From assembly GCF_016862635.1 (NCBI RefSeq), contig NZ_BONI01000088.1:1-36206 (forward strand): a stretch of DNA of 36,206 bases, in the 5' to 3' direction. Below the pieces are notes generated by a model. The model was not told the origin of the DNA and did no database searches. It saw nothing but the letters and a program-made list of their open reading frames with translations. This document shows, piece after piece, positions 4,367-12,935 of the stretch. The position numbers and the translations under genes are program-made. The DNA is from Catellatospora coxensis. Its GTDB lineage: Bacteria > Actinomycetota > Actinomycetes > Mycobacteriales > Micromonosporaceae. Positions within the stretch are counted from its first letter, which is position 1. Each line of letters starts with the position of its first letter.

Positions 4367-5507
4367 GCAGACAGTGGATGTCCTGGTCGTCGGTGCCGGT
4401 CTGGCCGGCCTGCACACGGCCCGCCTGCTCGCGCGACACGAGCTGAACGTGATGGTGGTCGACCGCCGCAGGTCGCTGTCGGCGGGCATCCGCACGACGG
4501 GGATTTTCGTACGGCGCACCCTCGAAGACTTCGACCTGCCCGACCACCTGCTCGGCCCCGGGGTTCGCGACGTGCTGCTGTATCCGCCGTCGCGGCGCGA
4601 CCCGATCCGGCTGACCAGCGACCGCGACGAGTACCGGGTCGCCGACATGCCCGGCGTCTACGAGCACGCGCGCCGCGCGGCCGAGTCGGCAGGGGCCCGG
4701 GTCGTCCTGGGCGTGCGCTACGACGGCTCGTCGGCCGGCGTCGTACGGCTCGAAGGCGCTGAACCGGTGCGGGCCAGGTTCATCGTCGGCGCGGACGGCG
4801 CGCGTTCTCGGGTGGCCCGTGACCTGGGGCTGGACGTCAACCACCGACTTATCGTCGGCGCGGAACTCGTGCACACGATCGCGTCGGGCACCACCACCCC
4901 GGCGTTCCACTGCGTGCTGGACCCGCGGGTCGCCCCCGGCTACCTCGGGTGGGTGATCGACGACGGCCACCACGCGCACGTCGGGGTCGCGGGATATCCG
5001 GACGCGATGCGTGCCGGGGTGCGCCACCTGCTGGAGGAGTTCGCCGCCGACGCGCCGGGCCACGCCGACCCGACCGGCCCGGTCGAGCGGCGGGGCGGCC
5101 CGATCCCGGTCGGCGGCGTGCTGCGCCGGCTGGCGAACCCCGCCGGGCTGCTCGTCGGCGACGCGGCCGGTGCGGTGTCCCCGCTGACGGCAGGCGGGCT
5201 CGACCCCTGCCTGCGGATGTCGGAGCTGGCCGCGTCGGTCGCCGCCGGCTGGCTGCGCACCGGCGACCAGCACGAGCTGCGCCGCTACGACGGGCAGGCG
5301 CTGCGCGGCCGGTTCCGAGGCCGGCTGCTGCTGCGCCGGGTGCTCGCCGGTGTCCGGTCGCACGCCGCCGCGGAGGCGGCGGTGGCCGCGCTGCGCGGTC
5401 GGGCCGGCCGGGCCGCGGCGGCACGTGTGCTGTTCGGCGACGGCTCGTTCCCCGACACCGACCCCCTGCTCGCCCGCCCGGTGGTCAACCGCTACGCCGC
5501 GAGCTGA
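4365..5507 (+). CDS. FAD-dependent oxidoreductase, geranylgeranyl reductase-like
   Basis: A 380-residue flavoprotein. It opens with the dinucleotide-binding motif VVGAGLAGLH (G10, G12, G15), with an acidic residue in VVDRRR ending the second strand. The second FAD motif, LLVGDAAGAVSPLTAGG, lies near residue 262 and is typical of the geranylgeranyl reductase/halogenase-like group in the p-hydroxybenzoate hydroxylase superfamily. GADGARSRVARDLGL at about 145 is the DG motif. Known relatives reduce isoprenoid chains or hydroxylate small aromatics. The substrate here is unknown. The ATG at 4365 abuts the palindrome at 4346-4366 and lacks a leader. The gene follows the sugar dehydrogenase but has its own promoter. 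It faces the GNAT gene convergently. Confidence 0.85.
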   Translation: MQTVDVLVVGAGLAGLHTARLLARHELNVMVVDRRRSLSAGIRTTGIFVRRTLEDFDLPDHLLGPGVRDVLLYPPSRRDPIRLTSDRDEYRVADMPGVYEHARRAAESAGARVVLGVRYDGSSAGVVRLEGAEPVRARFIVGADGARSRVARDLGLDVNHRLIVGAELVHTIASGTTTPAFHCVLDPRVAPGYLGWVIDDGHHAHVGVAGYPDAMRAGVRHLLEEFAADAPGHADPTGPVERRGGPIPVGGVLRRLANPAGLLVGDAAGAVSPLTAGGLDPCLRMSELAASVAAGWLRTGDQHELRRYDGQALRGRFRGRLLLRRVLAGVRSHAAAEAAVAALRGRAGRAAAARVLFGDGSFPDTDPLLARPVVNRYAAS

Positions 5508-5513
5508 CCGGCA

Positions 5514-5540
5514 CGGGCGCGTGGCGACGCGATGCGCCCG
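5514..5540. terminator. Weak hairpin between convergent genes
   Basis: CGGGCGC (5514-5520) and GCGCCCG (5534-5540) form a 7-bp stem with a 13-nt loop. It lies between the flavoprotein stop and the end of the acetyltransferase gene. There is no T tract. Confidence 0.35.
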
Positions 5541-5562
5541 GCACGCGAGCCACGACAGCGGC

Positions 5563-6060
5563 TCAGGCCCGTTCGCCTTCCTCGACCTTGAACGTGCTGA
5601 AGCCTCGGCGGTGGTAGTTGGGCAGCGCGGCCGGATGGTCGGCCGAGGACGTGTGCAGCCATACCCGCCGCACCGTCGGGGTCAGGTCCCACGCCTGCCG
5701 GACGGCGAGCGTCAGCGCGTACCCGCCCAGGCCCCGCCCGACGAACTCCGGCACCAGCCCGAACGTGTCGATCTCCACCTCGTCGTCGGGGTGGAGATCG
5801 CACGCGAGCAGTCCCGCGGGCTCGCCCTCGTGGGAAAGCAGCCAGAAGGCCCGGTCGGGGTGCCGCGCGAACCAGAGATCCCACTCCGGCGCCGTGCGCA
5901 CCGCGCTTCCCCAGCCGTAGGGCGCGCCCATCCGGGCCTGCACCTCGACGACCAGTGGCGAGCGCCGGTCGAGCGCCGCCAGCGCCAGGCCGGGCACCGG
6001 GGCCGCCGGGCGGAACTGCTCCTGGTCGGTCATGTGCACGTAGGTCACGATCTCTCTCAC
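5563..6060 (-). CDS. GNAT-family N-acetyltransferase
   Basis: A 165-residue cytoplasmic protein of the Gcn5-related acetyltransferase fold, which transfers an acetyl group from acetyl-CoA to an amine. The acetyl-CoA binding loop is visible as VPEFVGRGLGGYALTLAVRQ, preceded by the beta-4 strand EVEIDTFGL. It is followed by VRRVWLHTSSADHPAALPNY and the terminal YHRRGF turn seen in many GNATs. The GTG start at 6060 is chosen because a TAGGCT -10 box ends exactly 7 nt upstream (6068-6073), which gives a leaderless transcript. An internal ATG at 6033 is the alternative. Substrate unknown. It is transcribed divergently from the SARP gene. Confidence 0.85.
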   Translation of the reverse strand: MREIVTYVHMTDQEQFRPAAPVPGLALAALDRRSPLVVEVQARMGAPYGWGSAVRTAPEWDLWFARHPDRAFWLLSHEGEPAGLLACDLHPDDEVEIDTFGLVPEFVGRGLGGYALTLAVRQAWDLTPTVRRVWLHTSSADHPAALPNYHRRGFSTFKVEEGERA

Positions 6061-6067
6061 CGGGCGG

Positions 6068-6073
6068 AGCCTA
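6068..6073 (-). promoter_or_regulatory. -10 box of leaderless acetyltransferase transcript
   Basis: The minus strand reads TAGGCT followed by exactly 7 nt and then the GTG start at 6060. No ribosome binding site is present between them. Confidence 0.5.
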
Positions 6074-6211
6074 CCGCCGGTCGCCATGGGGCGCGGGCAC
6101 GTCCGGCCCGCCGCACGACTGTGCCATTTCCGACATCGAGCGACCGCCGGTTGCCTGCCGCCGTCCCTTATGGTGGGTTGCTTTCCTGGTGCGACACAGG
6201 AGGTGCGCGCG

Positions 6212-8956
6212 ATGCAGGTGAGGCTGCTGGGCTCGGTCGAGGTCGTCGTCGGCGGCACGGTGCGGCCGGTTCCCGGGCTGCGCCGCAAGGCCGTGCTGGC
6301 GATGCTGGGCCTGCACCCGGGGCAGATCGTCAGCAGCGACCGGCTGATCGACGCGGTATGGGCGGACGACGCGCCCGCCACCGCGCTCAACACCCTGCAG
6401 CGTCACGTCTCCTATCTGCGCGACCTGCTCGGCGCCAAGGACACGATCACGGCCAGGGCGTCCGGCTACCAGCTGGTCCTCGGCGACGAGGCCACGGACG
6501 TGCTCGCCGCCGAGCGGCTGATCCGCGCGGGCCGGCAGGCCGCCGATCCGCAGCGGACGGTCGTATGCCTGCGGGAGGCCGTCGCGCTGTGGCGGGGCCG
6601 GCCGCTGACCGGGGTCACGACACTGCGCTGGTTCGCCGAGCAGGCCGACCGCCTCGACCTGCTGGAGCACGAGGCGGTCCGGTCCCTGGCCGAGGCCCGG
6701 CTCGAACTCGGCGAGCACCGGCAGCTGATCCCCGGGCTGGAGCAGCTCGTCGCCGAGCGGCCGCTCGACGAGGGGCTGCACCGCCTGCTTTTGACGGCCC
6801 TGTACCGGTCGGGCCGGCAGGCCGCCGCATTGGAGCGGTTCCAGCAGCTCAAACGGCTGCTCGCCGAGGAGCTGGGCATCGACCCGAGCCCGGCGCTGCG
6901 CGAGCTGGAGACGGCGATCCTGCGGCAGGACCCGGCCCTGGACACCCCGGACAGCTCGGCCCGGATCGCCGTCGCGGGCCCGCCGGTGCCGTCCCAGCTG
7001 CCACTGGCGACCAGGGCTTTCGCGCCCCGGGTACGGGAACTCGCCGGGCTCGACGCGATGCTCGCCGACAGCCGCGCCGCCGGCACGATGCTGATCACGG
7101 TGGTGTCCGGGACCGCGGGCGCGGGCAAGACCGCGCTGGCCGTGCACTGGTCCCACCAGGTCCGGCGGTCGTTCCCCGACGGCCAGCTGTACGTGGACCT
7201 GCGCGGCTTCGGCGGCGACAAGCTGATCGACCCGCCCGCGGTGCTGCGGCGCTTCCTCGACGCGTACGGCGTGCCGGGGCATCGCATCCCGGCCGGGTCC
7301 GACGAGCTGGCCGCGCTGTACCGCAGCGTGCTCGCCGACCGGCGGGTGCTGGTCGTGCTCGACAACGCCCGCGACGCCGCGCAGGTGCGGCCGCTGCTGC
7401 CCGGCTCACCCGGCTGCGCGGTGGTGGTGACCAGCCGCAGCAGGCTCACCGAGCTGGTCGCGTTCGAGGGCGCGCAGCCGGTCACGCTCGGCCTGCTCAC
7501 CGACGGCGAGGCCCGTGACCTGCTCGCCCGGCGCATCGGCGCGGACCGGACGGCCGCCGAGCCGGCCGCCGTCGACGACGTCATCGCGCTGTGCGCCCGG
7601 CTGCCGCTGGCCCTGGCGCTGGCCGCGGCGAGCTGCGTCACCCGGCCCGAGCTGGCGATCGCGGAGGTGAACCGGCAGCTGCGCGGGTCCGCGGGGCCGT
7701 TCGGCGCCCTGCAGAGCGTGTTCTCCTGGTCGTACCGGGCGCTCGGCCCCGCCGCCGCACGCCTGTTCCGGCTGCTGGGCCTGCACCCCGGGCCGGACTT
7801 CACCGCACCCGTCGCCGCGAGCCTGACCGGCGTCCCGGTCGCGGCGGTCGGTCCCCTGATCGCCGAACTGCTCGGGGCGAACCTGCTGCAGGAGTCCGTG
7901 CCGGGCCGGTTCGGCTTCCACGACCTGCTGCGGGCGTACGCTCTCGACCGGGCCGGCGTCGACGAGACCGCGGCGGGGCTCGCCGCCGCCGACCGCCGCC
8001 TGCGCGAGCACTACCTGCACACCTCGGTCCGGGCGGCGATGCTGCTCACCCCCGCCCGGCAGCCCCTCACCGGCCTCGCCGCGGCCGGGCACGCCATCGA
8101 GGCCGTGCCCGCCGACCGGGACACGGCCGTGGCCTGGTTCCACGACGAGCGGCAGGCGCTGCAGGCCATGCTGCGCCGCGCCGCCGACGGCGGCCACGAC
8201 GAGCACGTGTGGCAGCTCGCCTGGGCGGTGCAGGACTTCCTCGACCGGTGGGGCCACTGGGAGGACCAGGTGGCCAACCAGCTCCTGGCGACCGCGGCCG
8301 CCGGGCGGCTCGGGCTGCCGGCCGCGCAGGGGCACGCGCACATCAGCGCCTCGACGACGTACGCCCGGCTCGGCGACCACGACCGGGCCCAGGACCACCT
8401 GCAGCAGGCCCTCGACCTGTTCGCCGGGCTCGGCGACTGCGGCGGCCAGGCCAAGGTCCAGTACCAGCTCGGCTGGCTGTGCAACCGGCAGGGCCGGCAC
8501 GGCCAGGCGGTGCGCCACGCCCGGCAGGCGCTGCGGCTGTACCGGGCGGCCGGGCAGCCGATGATGGCCGCGCGCACCCTCAACTCGCTCGGCTGGGGGT
8601 ACGCGCTCAGCGGCGACTTCGTCCGGGCCCGCCCCCGCTGCGAGCTGGCCCTGGCCCAGATGCAGCGCCTCGGCGACCACGCCTTCCAGGCCGGCACCTC
8701 CGACAGCCTCGGCTACATCCACCACCACCTCGGCAACCACGAGCTGGCCATCGCCCACTACCTGCGCGCCCTGGAGCTGTACCGGGGCCACGACGACCGC
8801 TACTACGAGGCCGACACGCTCGACCACCTCGGCGACGCGCACCGGGCGGCGGGCGACCCGGCCGCCGCCCGGACCGCCTGGGCGCAGGCGGTGGACATCC
8901 TCGACCGGCTCGGTCACGCCGACGCGGGCCGGATCAGGGTCAAACTGGCCGGGTGA
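6212..8956 (+). CDS. SARP-family transcriptional activator with NB-ARC and TPR domains (AfsR-like)
   Basis: A 914-residue regulator. Residues 1-95 are an OmpR-type winged helix (LLGSVEVVVGG, then SSDRLIDAVWADDAP and LQRHVSYLRDLLG). The bacterial activation domain BTAD spans about 96-250. An NB-ARC ATPase follows, with P-loop GTAGAGKT at 300-307, Walker B-like RRVLVVLDNARD and the SRSRLTEL sensor. The C-terminal third is TPR repeats such as ARLGDHDRAQDHLQQALDLF. SARPs recruit RNA polymerase to direct heptamer repeats with 11-bp period. Large AfsR-type members add an ATPase-TPR sensor. The ATG has a strong AGGAGGT site. The last 17 bases overlap the 3' end of the opposite-strand secreted-protein gene. 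Its likely target is the operon ending at 8940, whose promoter carries such heptamers. Confidence 0.93.
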   Translation: MQVRLLGSVEVVVGGTVRPVPGLRRKAVLAMLGLHPGQIVSSDRLIDAVWADDAPATALNTLQRHVSYLRDLLGAKDTITARASGYQLVLGDEATDVLAAERLIRAGRQAADPQRTVVCLREAVALWRGRPLTGVTTLRWFAEQADRLDLLEHEAVRSLAEARLELGEHRQLIPGLEQLVAERPLDEGLHRLLLTALYRSGRQAAALERFQQLKRLLAEELGIDPSPALRELETAILRQDPALDTPDSSARIAVAGPPVPSQLPLATRAFAPRVRELAGLDAMLADSRAAGTMLITVVSGTAGAGKTALAVHWSHQVRRSFPDGQLYVDLRGFGGDKLIDPPAVLRRFLDAYGVPGHRIPAGSDELAALYRSVLADRRVLVVLDNARDAAQVRPLLPGSPGCAVVVTSRSRLTELVAFEGAQPVTLGLLTDGEARDLLARRIGADRTAAEPAAVDDVIALCARLPLALALAAASCVTRPELAIAEVNRQLRGSAGPFGALQSVFSWSYRALGPAAARLFRLLGLHPGPDFTAPVAASLTGVPVAAVGPLIAELLGANLLQESVPGRFGFHDLLRAYALDRAGVDETAAGLAAADRRLREHYLHTSVRAAMLLTPARQPLTGLAAAGHAIEAVPADRDTAVAWFHDERQALQAMLRRAADGGHDEHVWQLAWAVQDFLDRWGHWEDQVANQLLATAAAGRLGLPAAQGHAHISASTTYARLGDHDRAQDHLQQALDLFAGLGDCGGQAKVQYQLGWLCNRQGRHGQAVRHARQALRLYRAAGQPMMAARTLNSLGWGYALSGDFVRARPRCELALAQMQRLGDHAFQAGTSDSLGYIHHHLGNHELAIAHYLRALELYRGHDDRYYEADTLDHLGDAHRAAGDPAAARTAWAQAVDILDRLGHADAGRIRVKLAG

Positions 8957-9395
8957 CCAGCTTCGGCCGGGGCATCGGCTGCTCGTTCGCGACGCTGGTG
9001 GAGCAGTCGCCCAGGTCGTCGTCACAGGCGACCTCGACGGCGTACATCTCGGTCACGCAGACGAAGATCCGCACGTCCACGTGGTACAGGCCGCCGACCC
9101 GACGGCAGGTCTCCTCCAGCGGCGGCAGGTCCCCGACCGGCCGGAACGCGCACGCCGTCGACTCCCGACAGCTGATCTCCCCGTCGGGCAGCACGCAGCC
9201 GTACGGGTACAGCGACTTCGGGTCCTCATAGAACGCGCCGCGCAGCTGCTCGCAGACGGCGACCAGGGTCTTCGGCTCGATGCCGCCGGGCGCGGGCTCC
9301 TCGCCGGCGGTCGCGGCGCTCGGCGCCACGCCGACGGCGGCGGCGGCGAGCACGGCGACGGCTGCCAGGCGCAGCATTCTGCTCAGGTGGGCCAC
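8940..9395 (-). CDS. Secreted cysteine-containing protein, third gene of SARP-linked operon
   Basis: A 151-residue protein of no family I recognise. The GTG start at 9395 follows GAAGGAG. An N-terminal signal peptide (MLRLAAVAVLAAAAVG, then a likely cleavage after ATAG) predicts export. The mature part holds eight cysteines, including CEQL, YGC, SCRESTAC, TCRR, FVC, ACDD and DCS, which suggests several disulfides. It also contains GCVLPDG, which resembles GGYLPDG near the end of the neighbouring protein. It lies last in the operon after two hairpins and overlaps the SARP gene tail by 17 bases on the opposite strand. The longer open frame to 9539 has no signal sequence at its start and is not preferred. 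Confidence 0.75.
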   Translation of the reverse strand: MAHLSRMLRLAAVAVLAAAAVGVAPSAATAGEEPAPGGIEPKTLVAVCEQLRGAFYEDPKSLYPYGCVLPDGEISCRESTACAFRPVGDLPPLEETCRRVGGLYHVDVRIFVCVTEMYAVEVACDDDLGDCSTSVANEQPMPRPKLVTRPV

Positions 9396-9413
9396 GATGG
9401 CTCCTTCACGAGG

Positions 9414-9448
9414 GGACGGGGTGGCGGGCTCACCCTGCCACCCCGTCC
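9414..9448 (-). terminator. Strong intergenic hairpin within the secreted-protein operon
   Basis: GGACGGGGTGGC (9414-9425) pairs perfectly with GCCACCCCGTCC (9437-9448). Three more GC pairs lie inside, giving about 15 bp with a single bulge and a 4-nt loop. It sits between the second and third secreted-protein genes. It could attenuate transcription or stabilise the upstream message. Confidence 0.65.
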
Positions 9449-9452
9449 TGAA

Positions 9453-9470
9453 ACGGCGCTGATGCGCCGT
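9453..9470 (-). terminator. Small hairpin after second operon gene
   Basis: ACGGCGC and GCGCCGT form a 7-bp stem around TGAT. The hairpin touches the stop codon of the 9470-9940 gene and stands next to the larger hairpin at 9414-9448. Confidence 0.45.
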
Positions 9471-9940
9471 CAACTCCTCGACAGCAGCACGCACTCCGCG
9501 ACCGAGCGCCCCGTGCTGATGCACATGGTCAGGCACCACTCGCGGCCGTCGGGCAGGTACCCGCCGAAGATCAGCGCCGACCGGAACGGCGCGACCTCGC
9601 CCGGCCCGTCGAACGCCCCGTCGGACAGATCCGTGAACGTCGTGCCGAGCAGGTCCTTGCCGCCCGGCATCGTGCCGAGCACCTTCACCCCGTCGACCTC
9701 GCCACCCGCGACGAGCCTCTCGGCCTGTTCAGCCGTCAGCTCGACCTTGCCCGCGTCGACCGCCAGCACCCGCTGCACCTCGCCCAGCGGACGCCCGGCC
9801 ACCTTCGCCAACTGTTCCAGCATCTCCCGCGGCGCCCCGGCCTGGTCGGCCACGGCGACCGTCGGCCGGTCCTCGCCCGCGTACGCCGGGGACCCGGCCA
9901 GGACCAGCCCGACCGCCACGGCCGCCAACACGACTCGCAT
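9470..9940 (-). CDS. Secreted protein, second gene of SARP-linked operon
   Basis: A 156-residue protein of unknown family. The ATG at 9940 follows a good AGGAGG. The signal peptide is MRVVLAAVAVGLVLAGSPAYA with an AYA-G cleavage site. The mature region has a segment (EMLEQLAKVAGRPLGEVQRV to GVKVLGT) that lines up with one in the upstream neighbour (EMAEIARVITGGKAAVFQRA to GAKVLRT). The two therefore look like paralogues sharing a domain of about 60 residues. The end carries GGYLPDGREWCLTMC and three cysteines in all. It starts 9 bases after the preceding stop, so the two are co-transcribed. The function could be a secreted peptide precursor or inhibitor; nothing in the sequence decides this. 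Confidence 0.75.
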   Translation of the reverse strand: MRVVLAAVAVGLVLAGSPAYAGEDRPTVAVADQAGAPREMLEQLAKVAGRPLGEVQRVLAVDAGKVELTAEQAERLVAGGEVDGVKVLGTMPGGKDLLGTTFTDLSDGAFDGPGEVAPFRSALIFGGYLPDGREWCLTMCISTGRSVAECVLLSRS

Positions 9941-9949
9941 GACGTCCTC

Positions 9950-10687
9950 CTAGAACTGGCAGGTGACGATCGGGATGGTGTCGCTGCCCGGAGGCGGCGG
10001 CGGGAACCAGGTGCAGTGGTCGTGGATCCAGTCGCCGATGCCGTCGATCCCGTCCACGACCCAGTCGATGACCGCCGACACCGCGCCCGTGATCGCATCC
10101 CAGATCTCGCTGAGCAGGTACACCACGACCGGCTCGCCGCCGCCGGCCCCGTCGACGACGTCCTGCACCGTGGACGCCGGGTCGAGCTTGTCGACCGTGC
10201 GCAGCACCTTCGCCCCGGTGGTGTCCTTGCCCGCGAGGATCGCCTCGACCTCGGCCGGGGTGCGCTCGCGGCCGTCGTCGACGGTCACCACCGCCCGCTG
10301 GAACACCGCCGCCTTGCCGCCGGTGATCACCCGGGCGATCTCGGCCATCTCGCCGAACGTCAGATCGCCGCCGCGCTCCGGCCGGTGGAACCGGCGCACC
10401 GACACCTGCCCCTTGGGGCCGACCTGCACGGCCGGTGCGGTGATCAGGTCGTCGGCCTCGTACGGGGCCCAGCCGAACTGCCACAGCCCGGCCACGCAGC
10501 GGAACTCGCCGACCTGCGCGCCCTCGGGCTCCGTCGACGTGCCGCGGACCTCGCCGCGCTCGTCGACCTGCTCGACGACGCAGTCGACCTTGCCGCCCGC
10601 CCTGTCGCCCGCGAGCGCGGGGGCCGCCGCGCCGGCGACCGCCAGCGTGGTGCCCACCGCGAGCGCGGCGACCATCAGCCTTCTCAT
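9950..10687 (-). CDS. Secreted protein, first gene of SARP-linked operon
   Basis: A 245-residue exported protein, family not recognised. The ATG at 10687 follows AGGAGGG. The signal peptide MRRLMVAALAVGTTLAVAGA ends in ALA-G. The mature chain contains the domain shared with the next gene (about residues 115-180, including TPAEVEAILAGKDTTGAKV). A long amphipathic or hydrophobic stretch with repeated W-[IV] pairs follows (AVIDWVVDGIDGIGDWIHDH), then a proline run and a C-terminal CQF. The hydrophobic stretch could be membrane-active. It heads the three-gene operon and lies downstream of the heptamer array at 10738-10766. The frame continues upstream to 10720, but those residues precede the ribosome site. 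Confidence 0.75.
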   Translation of the reverse strand: MRRLMVAALAVGTTLAVAGAAAPALAGDRAGGKVDCVVEQVDERGEVRGTSTEPEGAQVGEFRCVAGLWQFGWAPYEADDLITAPAVQVGPKGQVSVRRFHRPERGGDLTFGEMAEIARVITGGKAAVFQRAVVTVDDGRERTPAEVEAILAGKDTTGAKVLRTVDKLDPASTVQDVVDGAGGGEPVVVYLLSEIWDAITGAVSAVIDWVVDGIDGIGDWIHDHCTWFPPPPPGSDTIPIVTCQF

Positions 10688-10700
10688 GATGCCCTCCTGT

Positions 10701-10723
10701 GTCGTGTCGTACCTGGACACGAC
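10701..10723. promoter_or_regulatory. Inverted repeat in leader of secreted-protein operon
   Basis: GTCGTGTC (10701-10708) and GACACGAC (10716-10723) are perfect 8-bp arms around a 7-nt spacer. The site lies just upstream of the AGGAGGG of the first operon gene. It may be a second operator or a leader hairpin. Confidence 0.5.
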
Positions 10724-10737
10724 GGTCGCAGCGGGCG

Positions 10738-10766
10738 CTGACGCGGGTCTGACGCGTTCCTGAAAC
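10738..10766 (-). promoter_or_regulatory. Candidate SARP-binding heptamer array
   Basis: Three heptamers, CTGACGC, CTGACGC and CTGAAAC on the plus strand, begin at 10738, 10749 and 10760, exactly 11 bp apart with 4-bp spacers. On the operon strand they read GTTTCAG, GCGTCAG and GCGTCAG. Direct heptamers with 11-bp period are the known SARP binding layout. The array ends about 50 bases before the first operon ATG, and a SARP gene is next door. Confidence 0.6.
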
Positions 10767-10818
10767 GGGCATTCCGGCTGCAGGTACCGGGGTTTGGCGA
10801 CCTGGCACGATACATGTC

Positions 10819-11322
10819 GTGAGCTGGTTCATGGTGGCGATGCCGCTGCACGTCGCGCTGGAGAACGGCGGCCTGGCCCGGGCCGCAGACGCGTCCTTGT
10901 CCTTCGGGCTGCCCGACGAGCCGCCGGTCGCCGGTGAGCCGCCGACCGTGGTGCAGGTCCTGTCCGCGTTCCGGCAGGCGGGCTGCCACGGCGACGCGTG
11001 GTTCCGGCTCGCCGTGCCCGACTGCGGCACTGGACTTGCGGTGTGTCCGGATCACGTGAACTGTTCGACGGTAGGCGGGCTCGACCTGGGCGAAGTCATG
11101 TTGGGCGTCGATGGTCGCAGCAGGTCCGAGCCGCTGGAGCCGGGCGACGCCGTGACCGACATCGGGTTTCGCAAACCGGCCGGCGGCGCGGTGCTGGCCG
11201 CGATCCTGGCGCTGGCGTCGCAGTCGGGACCATGGCTGGTGTGCGACGACGGTGGCGACTGCGTGTTCGTGGTGTCACCAGGAGACGATCCGGCGCACCT
11301 CGCGGCGCACTGGCCGTGGTGA
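10819..11322 (+). CDS. Hypothetical protein
   Basis: A 167-residue protein of no recognised family, with normal high-GC codon use. It has no signal peptide or membrane segment. Seven cysteines occur in short motifs (AGCHGD, PDCGTGLAVCPDHVNC, VCDDGGDC). The ending is acidic and tryptophan-rich (DPAHLAAHWPW). The start is uncertain: GTG at 10819 fits the full frame but lacks a ribosome site, and ATGs at 10831 and 10840 are alternatives behind a TACATG box at 10811. It is divergent from the secreted-protein operon and shares its upstream region with the heptamer array, so common control is possible. Confidence 0.6.
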   Translation: MSWFMVAMPLHVALENGGLARAADASLSFGLPDEPPVAGEPPTVVQVLSAFRQAGCHGDAWFRLAVPDCGTGLAVCPDHVNCSTVGGLDLGEVMLGVDGRSRSEPLEPGDAVTDIGFRKPAGGAVLAAILALASQSGPWLVCDDGGDCVFVVSPGDDPAHLAAHWPW

Positions 11323-12778: not shown

Positions 12779-12880
12779 ACGCTCGATGGTGCCGCCGCAG
12801 TCCACCCGGTGGCGACCGGACACGCCGCGCCCGATGTGTCGTATATCGACGCTTGACGCACCCTCCGCCACCGTCCCATG

Positions 12881-12934
12881 GAAAGGAAGGGCACCTTCAC
12901 ATCGCTATGTGTTGTGGAAGGTGCCCTTCCTTTC
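12881..12934 (-). terminator. Long perfect hairpin terminator (AAGGAAGGGCACCTTC type)
   Basis: GAAAGGAAGGGCACCTTC (12881-12898) pairs perfectly with GAAGGTGCCCTTCCTTTC (12917-12934), giving an 18-bp stem and an 18-nt loop. It starts two bases after the stop of the ricin/beta-helix gene and ends in a T-rich arm. From memory, this motif recurs between genes in Micromonospora and Salinispora, which supports the family assignment; that is unverified here. Confidence 0.8.
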
Positions 12935-12935
12935 T

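Follow-up and report, generated by a model that had tools for sequence, protein, structure and literature searches.

A large SARP-family regulator of Catellatospora coxensis and the genes for three secreted-type proteins beside it (P1, P2, and P3) very probably form a self-contained module, in which the SARP is dedicated to a regulon of secreted proteins. The module lies on contig 88 of the 9.35 Mb genome, and we analyzed a stretch of 36,206 nucleotides from this contig (“the window”). A first-pass annotation, made from the letters of the window alone, had proposed that the SARP activates a dedicated set of secreted products. Comparisons with other genomes support this proposal: the SARP gene stays with the P genes, their lead promoters have a common grammar, the SARP and the repeats co-occur within the genus, the SARP's recognition helix is conserved, and a detached P2-type gene still carries the repeats. 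It is common to treat SARP genes as markers of antibiotic clusters. If our interpretation is true, then the role of SARPs is wider, and the presence of a SARP gene does not have to imply a biosynthetic cluster. In a limited literature search, we found no published description of a SARP that is dedicated to secreted proteins.

The SARP gene and its linkage to the P genes

The features of the locus are as follows (coordinates within the window, strand, description):
6212–8956, plus: large SARP regulator, 914 amino acids, with an OmpR-type DNA-binding domain, BTAD, NB-ARC, and TPR; helix NTLQRHVSYLR at residues 60–70
8940–9395, minus: P1, 151 amino acids, GTG start codon, signal-peptide-like start, 8 cysteines, faster evolving
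9432–9437, minus: −10-like hexamer CAGGGT for P1, 10 bp past the end of its two-unit site
9448–9465, minus: two-unit site before P1, GCATCAG-CGCC-GTTTCAG
9470–9940, minus: P2, 156 amino acids, signal-peptide-like start, 3 cysteines; a core of about 70 amino acids in common with P3
9950–10687, minus: P3, 245 amino acids, signal-peptide-like start, 4 cysteines; lead gene of the P3-P2 pair
10722–10727, minus: −10-like hexamer GACCGT, separated from the upstream three-unit array by exactly 10 bp
10738–10766, minus: three-unit array upstream of P3, GTTTCAG-GAAC-GCGTCAG-ACCC-GCGTCAG, with an exact 11-bp period

As the annotation described, the SARP gene converges on three minus-strand genes (8940–10687) whose products have signal-peptide-like starts, as judged by a crude rule of our own rather than a trained predictor. 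The SARP and P1 genes share 17 bp at their 3' ends (8940–8956). The annotation had also described the P genes as one operon. This holds for the P3-P2 pair, which has a gap of 9 bp and lies behind the array, but P1 is set apart behind its own two-unit site, which the annotation missed. So, there are probably two transcription units (P3-P2 and P1), and P1 most likely has its own promoter.

The domain content of the regulator is that of a large SARP. Pfam's Trans_reg_C (E = 1.5e-10) and BTAD (E = 5.1e-41) match as expected for the N-terminal part, and NB-ARC (E = 1.7e-07), TPR_12 (E = 5.5e-28), and the length of 914 amino acids fit the C-terminal half of large SARPs, which have about 1000 amino acids overall. 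Also as in large SARPs, heptamer repeats with an 11-bp period are found near a −10 element, at both 10738–10766 and 9448–9465. NCBIfam's AfsR model (NF053617) matches residues 3–901, but with 501.8 bits against a curated cut-off of 1430, so we do not consider this SARP to be an orthologue of AfsR.

We found related loci by their homology to the secreted proteins, without using the SARP or the repeats. A search for P3 in 200 genomes of the family gave matches at E ≤ 0.001 in 21 genomes from 11 of 44 genera; with larger flanks, 19 genomes (including the window's) had real P3 loci. Further loci came from a P1 search within the genus, from a P3 profile run across the order (of 397 genomes, 21 matched, including two weak matches in another family), and from named genomes (at least 16 loci). 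The final set comprises 38 deduplicated loci from Micromonosporaceae. We dropped L052 and L053 (weak, spurious matches with no P-type gene), L127 and L129 (weak P1 matches with no P or SARP match), L138 and L139 (weak matches to the N-terminal part only, from another family), and the duplicates L055, L056, L061, L062, L065, L066, L067, and L070. (L070, which repeats L044, remains in the 24-row tree and in the helix count below.) An iterated P1 profile drifted into P2 and P3, and we kept it out of the counts. The gene finder missed the P1 gene of L046, which is outside the 8 P1 genes counted, and the called starts of some P2 genes are probably wrong (L039, L045, and L069 are examples). Three loci that were found later (L193, L194, and L225) are kept apart from the 38. 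There was also a weak P2 match in another genome (G025; E = 6.6e-4). At the dropped locus L139 (7296–7607, genome G408), a 103-amino-acid protein with a signal-peptide-like start resembles P3 in its N-terminal part only; there is no SARP match nearby.

A SARP match that covers at least 876 of the 914 residues lies beside the P genes at 37 of the 38 loci (at L048, one small gene lies between). There are four layouts: the SARP gene followed by P3-P2 on one strand, convergent genes as in the window, divergent genes, or P genes on both sides of the SARP gene (L046 and L047). The annotation had suggested looking for the same gene set and heptamers in related genomes, and both were found, with repeats at all 46 lead promoters. 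Related bacteria nearly always appear to keep the SARP, the secreted proteins, and the repeats together, although the gene order varies.

Promoter repeats in the window and across loci

The three heptamers with an exact 11-bp period that the annotation reported are present at 10738–10766. In the register that we use, the spacing from the last unit to the −10 is 10 bp; the 8 bp given in the literature is consistent with this if each unit is taken to start two bases further on. The P3 leader also contains a perfect 8-bp inverted repeat (GTCGTGTC/GACACGAC, window 10701–10723), between the −10 and the start codon.

Across the whole genome, the pattern GNNTCAG-N4-GNNTCAG-N4-GNNTCAG has one exact match and occurs at 3 places with at most one mismatch, versus 0 for a reversed-pattern control. 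Similarly, the two-unit form with its −10 has one exact match, before P1 (9432–9465). If one mismatch is allowed, there are 4 further places (one of them inside the P3 array) versus 2 for the control. A generic search for three repeats at 11 bp did not discriminate on its own. Out of a possible 21, the window array scored 17; among 99 upstream regions, two others equaled this score and another reached 21. Among 198 control stretches, 3 equaled or exceeded the score of the window array. Because this test did not single out the array, it is the conservation of the array that places it beyond chance.

To quantify conservation, we used a score matrix that was trained on 17 P3 arrays, with the window's array held out. 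The held-out array scored 25.6. When we scanned both strands of 339 kb, 26 places scored 14 or above (including the trained arrays and shifted registers), versus 0 in the reversed control; at a score of 10, there were 41 places versus 7. In the 38 loci, the repeats precede 35 of 35 P3 genes, 3 of 3 P2 genes that lead their unit, and 8 of 8 called P1 genes. Most of the P3 promoters (33/35) and all three lead P2 promoters scored 14 or above, as did 2 of the 8 P1 promoters, which have two-unit sites in every called case. The two remaining P3 promoters (L047 and L051) scored 9.1 and 12.0. Just 2 of 393 other genes reached 14, and none reached 16. The 29 P2 genes that are not in the lead all scored below 0, so none of them reached 14.

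The −10 is part of the same grammar. In all 46 lead promoters, the last unit is followed by 10 bp and then NANNNT. (For 44 of them, this is in the register chosen by the score; the other two, the P1 promoters of L035 and L044, were reset to the two-unit register.) At the equal offset from the best-scoring register, NANNNT occurs in just 12 of the 393 other genes. The distance from the end of the array to the start codon is 44–68 bp. L044, L046, L068, and L069 have a degenerate third unit. The uncounted P1 gene of L046 also has a two-unit site (at 8781), 10 bp from CAAGGT. Given the held-out scores, the reversed-sequence controls, and the promoter counts, we rule out a chance array.

The locus-specific occurrence of the exact arrays also bears on another possibility, which is that the SARP in reality acts on a biosynthetic cluster located elsewhere, with the secreted genes as hitchhikers. 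A review of SARPs does treat them as regulators of secondary metabolism (PMC10972967). Nevertheless, each of the two exact forms, the three-unit array and the two-unit site with its −10, is found just once in the genome, in both cases at this locus; the linkage also survives changes in layout. We consider the hitchhiker scenario to be very improbable. Within the window, 18 of the 31 genes were scanned with Pfam, and among these we saw no cluster for a polyketide synthase (PKS), a non-ribosomal peptide synthetase (NRPS), or a ribosomally synthesized and post-translationally modified peptide (RiPP); single enzymes, such as FAD oxidoreductases, are present.

We noticed some other repeats as well. 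The two other genes that scored 14 or above encode TPR regulators from Micromonospora with Trans_reg_C and an array of their own. This type of regulator, whose Trans_reg_C is C-terminal, adjoins a 264-amino-acid protein with a signal-peptide-like start, and the units are GGTTCAG/GCGTCAA at 11 bp (L039, 12038–12066; L131, 11080–11108; L134, near 2876 on the minus strand). In the same genome as the window (L171, around 5960–5988; G000:C26), TACCATC is repeated three times with an exact 11-bp period, in the region that separates a large SARP gene from a small, divergently oriented one; to judge by its repeats, this is another SARP-type array with a different unit. Finally, a long inverted repeat (GGAAAGGAAGGGCACCTTC...GAAGGTGCCCTTCCTTTC) lies between two minus-strand genes at about 12880–12935 of the window, and is terminator-like or a mobile repeat.

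Which regulator reads the repeats

Within the genus, 5 of 11 genomes have a SARP orthologue (full-length, with at least 65% identity); the next best full-length match has 47% identity, and partial matches reach 49%. The same 5 genomes have P1 at E ≤ 1e-9, and they also contain the triple TCAG pattern with a −10, which is in 0 of the 6 others. (A sixth genome has a weak, unconfirmed match to P1, with E = 0.002.) In one of the genomes (G087), one of two sites with the triple pattern precedes an unrelated 134-amino-acid protein.

Another of these five genomes, G109, has an array-bearing gene of the P2 type away from its SARP gene. Its SARP is 84% identical to the window's and has only P1 beside it, with the P1 site. 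The genes on both flanks are conserved, so the simplest reading is that P2-P3 were lost there. On a different contig, at least 0.49 Mb from the contig ends, G109 has a P2-type gene with a three-unit array. This protein is identical to the P2 of L126 at 115 of 145 residues, and its start is 50 bp past the array's −10.

In a tree of the SARPs, the 24 linked rows (23 of them distinct) group together (SH-aLRT = 97), along with one paralogue (L004) that has NB-ARC and TPR but no match to Trans_reg_C or BTAD. Residues 60–70, the helix, match N[TS]LQ[RSA][HN][VI]S[YH]LR in 23 of the 24 linked rows (22/23 distinct), versus 0 of 31 paralogues drawn from the window's genome and genus; the motif was written from the linked rows, so this contrast shows conservation and is not an independent prediction.

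A P1 profile run against 354 genomes of the family had matches in 11, and two of the loci were new (L193 and L194). L193 is from another genus (G031). Its SARP has 60% identity, and its P1 has a two-unit site with 10 bp to GACAGT. Divergent from the SARP gene is a gene (9989–11244) for a DUF3103 protein (Pfam E = 1.3e-23); this gene lies behind a three-unit array, with CACCGT 10 bp further on from the array. By eye, the DUF3103 protein has a signal-peptide-like start, which our rule did not flag. This protein may be another exported target.

Several observations weigh against the idea that the SARP is the dedicated reader of these arrays. First, a homologue without a SARP neighbor or heptamers, which the annotation had said would refute its proposal, exists once and in weak form: L194 (genome G095, 6269–6982) is a distant fusion of P1-like and P2-like sequences, with neither a SARP match nor an array in 14 kb. 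Second, L130 (genome G516) keeps P3 and a good array beside just a C-terminal remnant of the SARP (6344–6538, with an internal stop). Third, the helix of the L193 SARP (NTLQRHMSYLR), which is outside the helix count, is one residue off the motif. Fourth, many of the 38 loci are from closely related Micromonospora, so our counts overstate the number of independent events. Fifth, the pattern TCAG-N7-TCAG-N7-TCAG-N11-A-N3-T is present in 126 of the 354 family genomes, versus 0 for the control among the matches listed. In 20 regions around such sites that we chose (8.6–17 kb each), just 4 had a SARP-like gene. The genes downstream of these arrays (L195–L224 and L225–L244) encode ABC transporters, a family of 134-amino-acid proteins, a multicopper oxidase, and others. 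As 16 of these 20 regions have no SARP-like gene, other regulators may read similar sites. The array type is a widespread promoter class, so the site alone does not name its regulator.

These arrays without a SARP, and the array that L130 retains, would be explained if another winged-helix regulator (OmpR- or PhoP-like) reads them and the SARP is linked for some other reason or only assists. Furthermore, the afsS site is reportedly used by both AfsR and PhoP (PMC10972967). But in the genus, the arrays are found only where the SARP orthologue is (5/5 vs. 0/6). Also, a global regulon would not be expected to have its exact three-unit array just once in the genome, the recognition helix is conserved in the linked SARPs, and the unit has TCAG instead of the TCAC of PHO boxes. 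Overall, another reader of the arrays at this locus seems unlikely, and we prefer the dedicated SARP.

The secreted proteins, a proposed mechanism, and known systems

The annotation stated that the three proteins match no known family, and indeed none of P1, P2, or P3 from the window is above the curated cut-offs of Pfam or NCBIfam. The best sub-threshold match in Pfam is P2 to Amidohydro_2 (E = 0.00039; 20.7 bits vs. a cut-off of 26.4). PHROGs had nothing credible for P1–P3 (best E = 0.0099), and in a sequence search of the PDB, the best matches had E = 0.19 (P3 profile) and E = 0.48 (P1 profile). The core of about 70 amino acids in P2 and P3 aligns with an hhalign probability of 97.0. We found no support for P1 being a paralogue of P3, as the profile comparison aligned only the signal peptides. 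These comparisons define families of secreted proteins without an assigned function. Rough estimates of the ratio of nonsynonymous to synonymous substitution rates (dN/dS) are about 0.37–0.75 for P1, 0.21–0.45 for P2 and P3, and 0.15–0.28 for the SARP, so P1 is, roughly, the fastest to change among the module's genes.

The signal-peptide-like starts and the conserved cysteines suggest that P1–P3 are exported and contain disulphides. We noticed no conserved gene for export or processing beside the module in the gene maps that we read, which makes the general Sec route the simplest assumption for export. More weakly, we infer that P1–P3 act outside the cell, on other organisms or on the surroundings, with P1 changing the fastest.

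We propose that the NB-ARC/TPR half of the SARP would sense a signal, which would release the SARP to bind direct heptamer repeats of the NNTCAG type, 11 bp apart, over the −35 region of the two promoters. The SARP would then recruit RNA polymerase, and P3-P2 (three units) and P1 (two units) would be transcribed. The products would be exported by the Sec route and become small disulphide-bonded extracellular proteins. Direct binding and activation by the SARP is what we infer by analogy to AfsR. It is a guess that three units for P3-P2 and two for P1 may give different sensitivity. In this compact two-promoter system, DNA recognition, sensing by NB-ARC/TPR, and output could be tested together. 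In another genome location (L172, G000:C10), we noticed a ricin-type lectin protein with a signal-peptide-like start (4478–5035) that is convergent with an NB-ARC/TPR protein (5070–7400); the latter resembles the sensory half of the window's SARP but has no match to a SARP domain.

More broadly, and tentatively, it is possible that, in the Micromonosporaceae, one clade of large SARPs has abandoned small-molecule biosynthesis and controls nothing but secreted proteins. P1–P3, made on ribosomes and rich in disulphides, would themselves be the bioactive product (an extracellular signal or antagonistic proteins), controlled via the NB-ARC/TPR sensor and a portable cassette of array plus −10 that could also bring in further exported proteins, for example the DUF3103 protein of L193. 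We consider this doubtful as a whole. The promoter grammar is ordinary for a large SARP, and the novelty is what, as far as can be seen, is a dedicated regulon of secreted proteins.

In RRNPP pairs, a short secreted propeptide is encoded beside a TPR regulator. By analogy, fragments of the secreted proteins might re-enter the cell and be sensed by the TPR half of the SARP, which would be an autocrine loop with positive feedback. Here too, a TPR regulator adjoins the genes for secreted products that it would activate, and the pairing recurs in several genera. However, the window's regulator has a SARP-type DNA-binding domain, and P1–P3 are long (151–245 amino acids), with conserved cysteines and a shared domain, unlike short propeptides. 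When we inspected four stretches upstream of SARP genes by eye, we saw no array. Nor did we notice a conserved gene for an importer next to the module when reading the gene maps, although no search was aimed at one. An autocrine loop thus seems improbable.

The PHO boxes that PhoP binds are 11-bp direct repeats with a TCA core and units of the GTTCACC type. The repeats in the window share the 11-bp period and the TCA core, but the five units are GTTTCAG, GCGTCAG, or GCATCAG, that is, with TCAG instead of TCAC, and none is of the GTTCACC type. Given these units and the single exact array in the genome, we rule out a PHO box.

The closest parallels are with other SARPs. The cluster-situated SARPs ActII-ORF4 and DnrI control biosynthetic genes, and their sites consist of three heptamers that lie upstream of the promoter they regulate and overlap its −35 region (PMC10972967). 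The window's array is similar, but the products here are proteins, and no biosynthetic cluster was seen in the 18 of 31 genes scanned. AfsR, a large SARP, has the same SARP-NOD-TPR architecture and 11-bp direct repeats over the −35 region; in Streptomyces coelicolor, afsS has TTCAGC as its −35 and CACTGT as its −10 (PMC10936776). The window's SARP differs in that its likely targets are secreted proteins instead of afsS, and in that it appears to be a local regulator instead of a global one.

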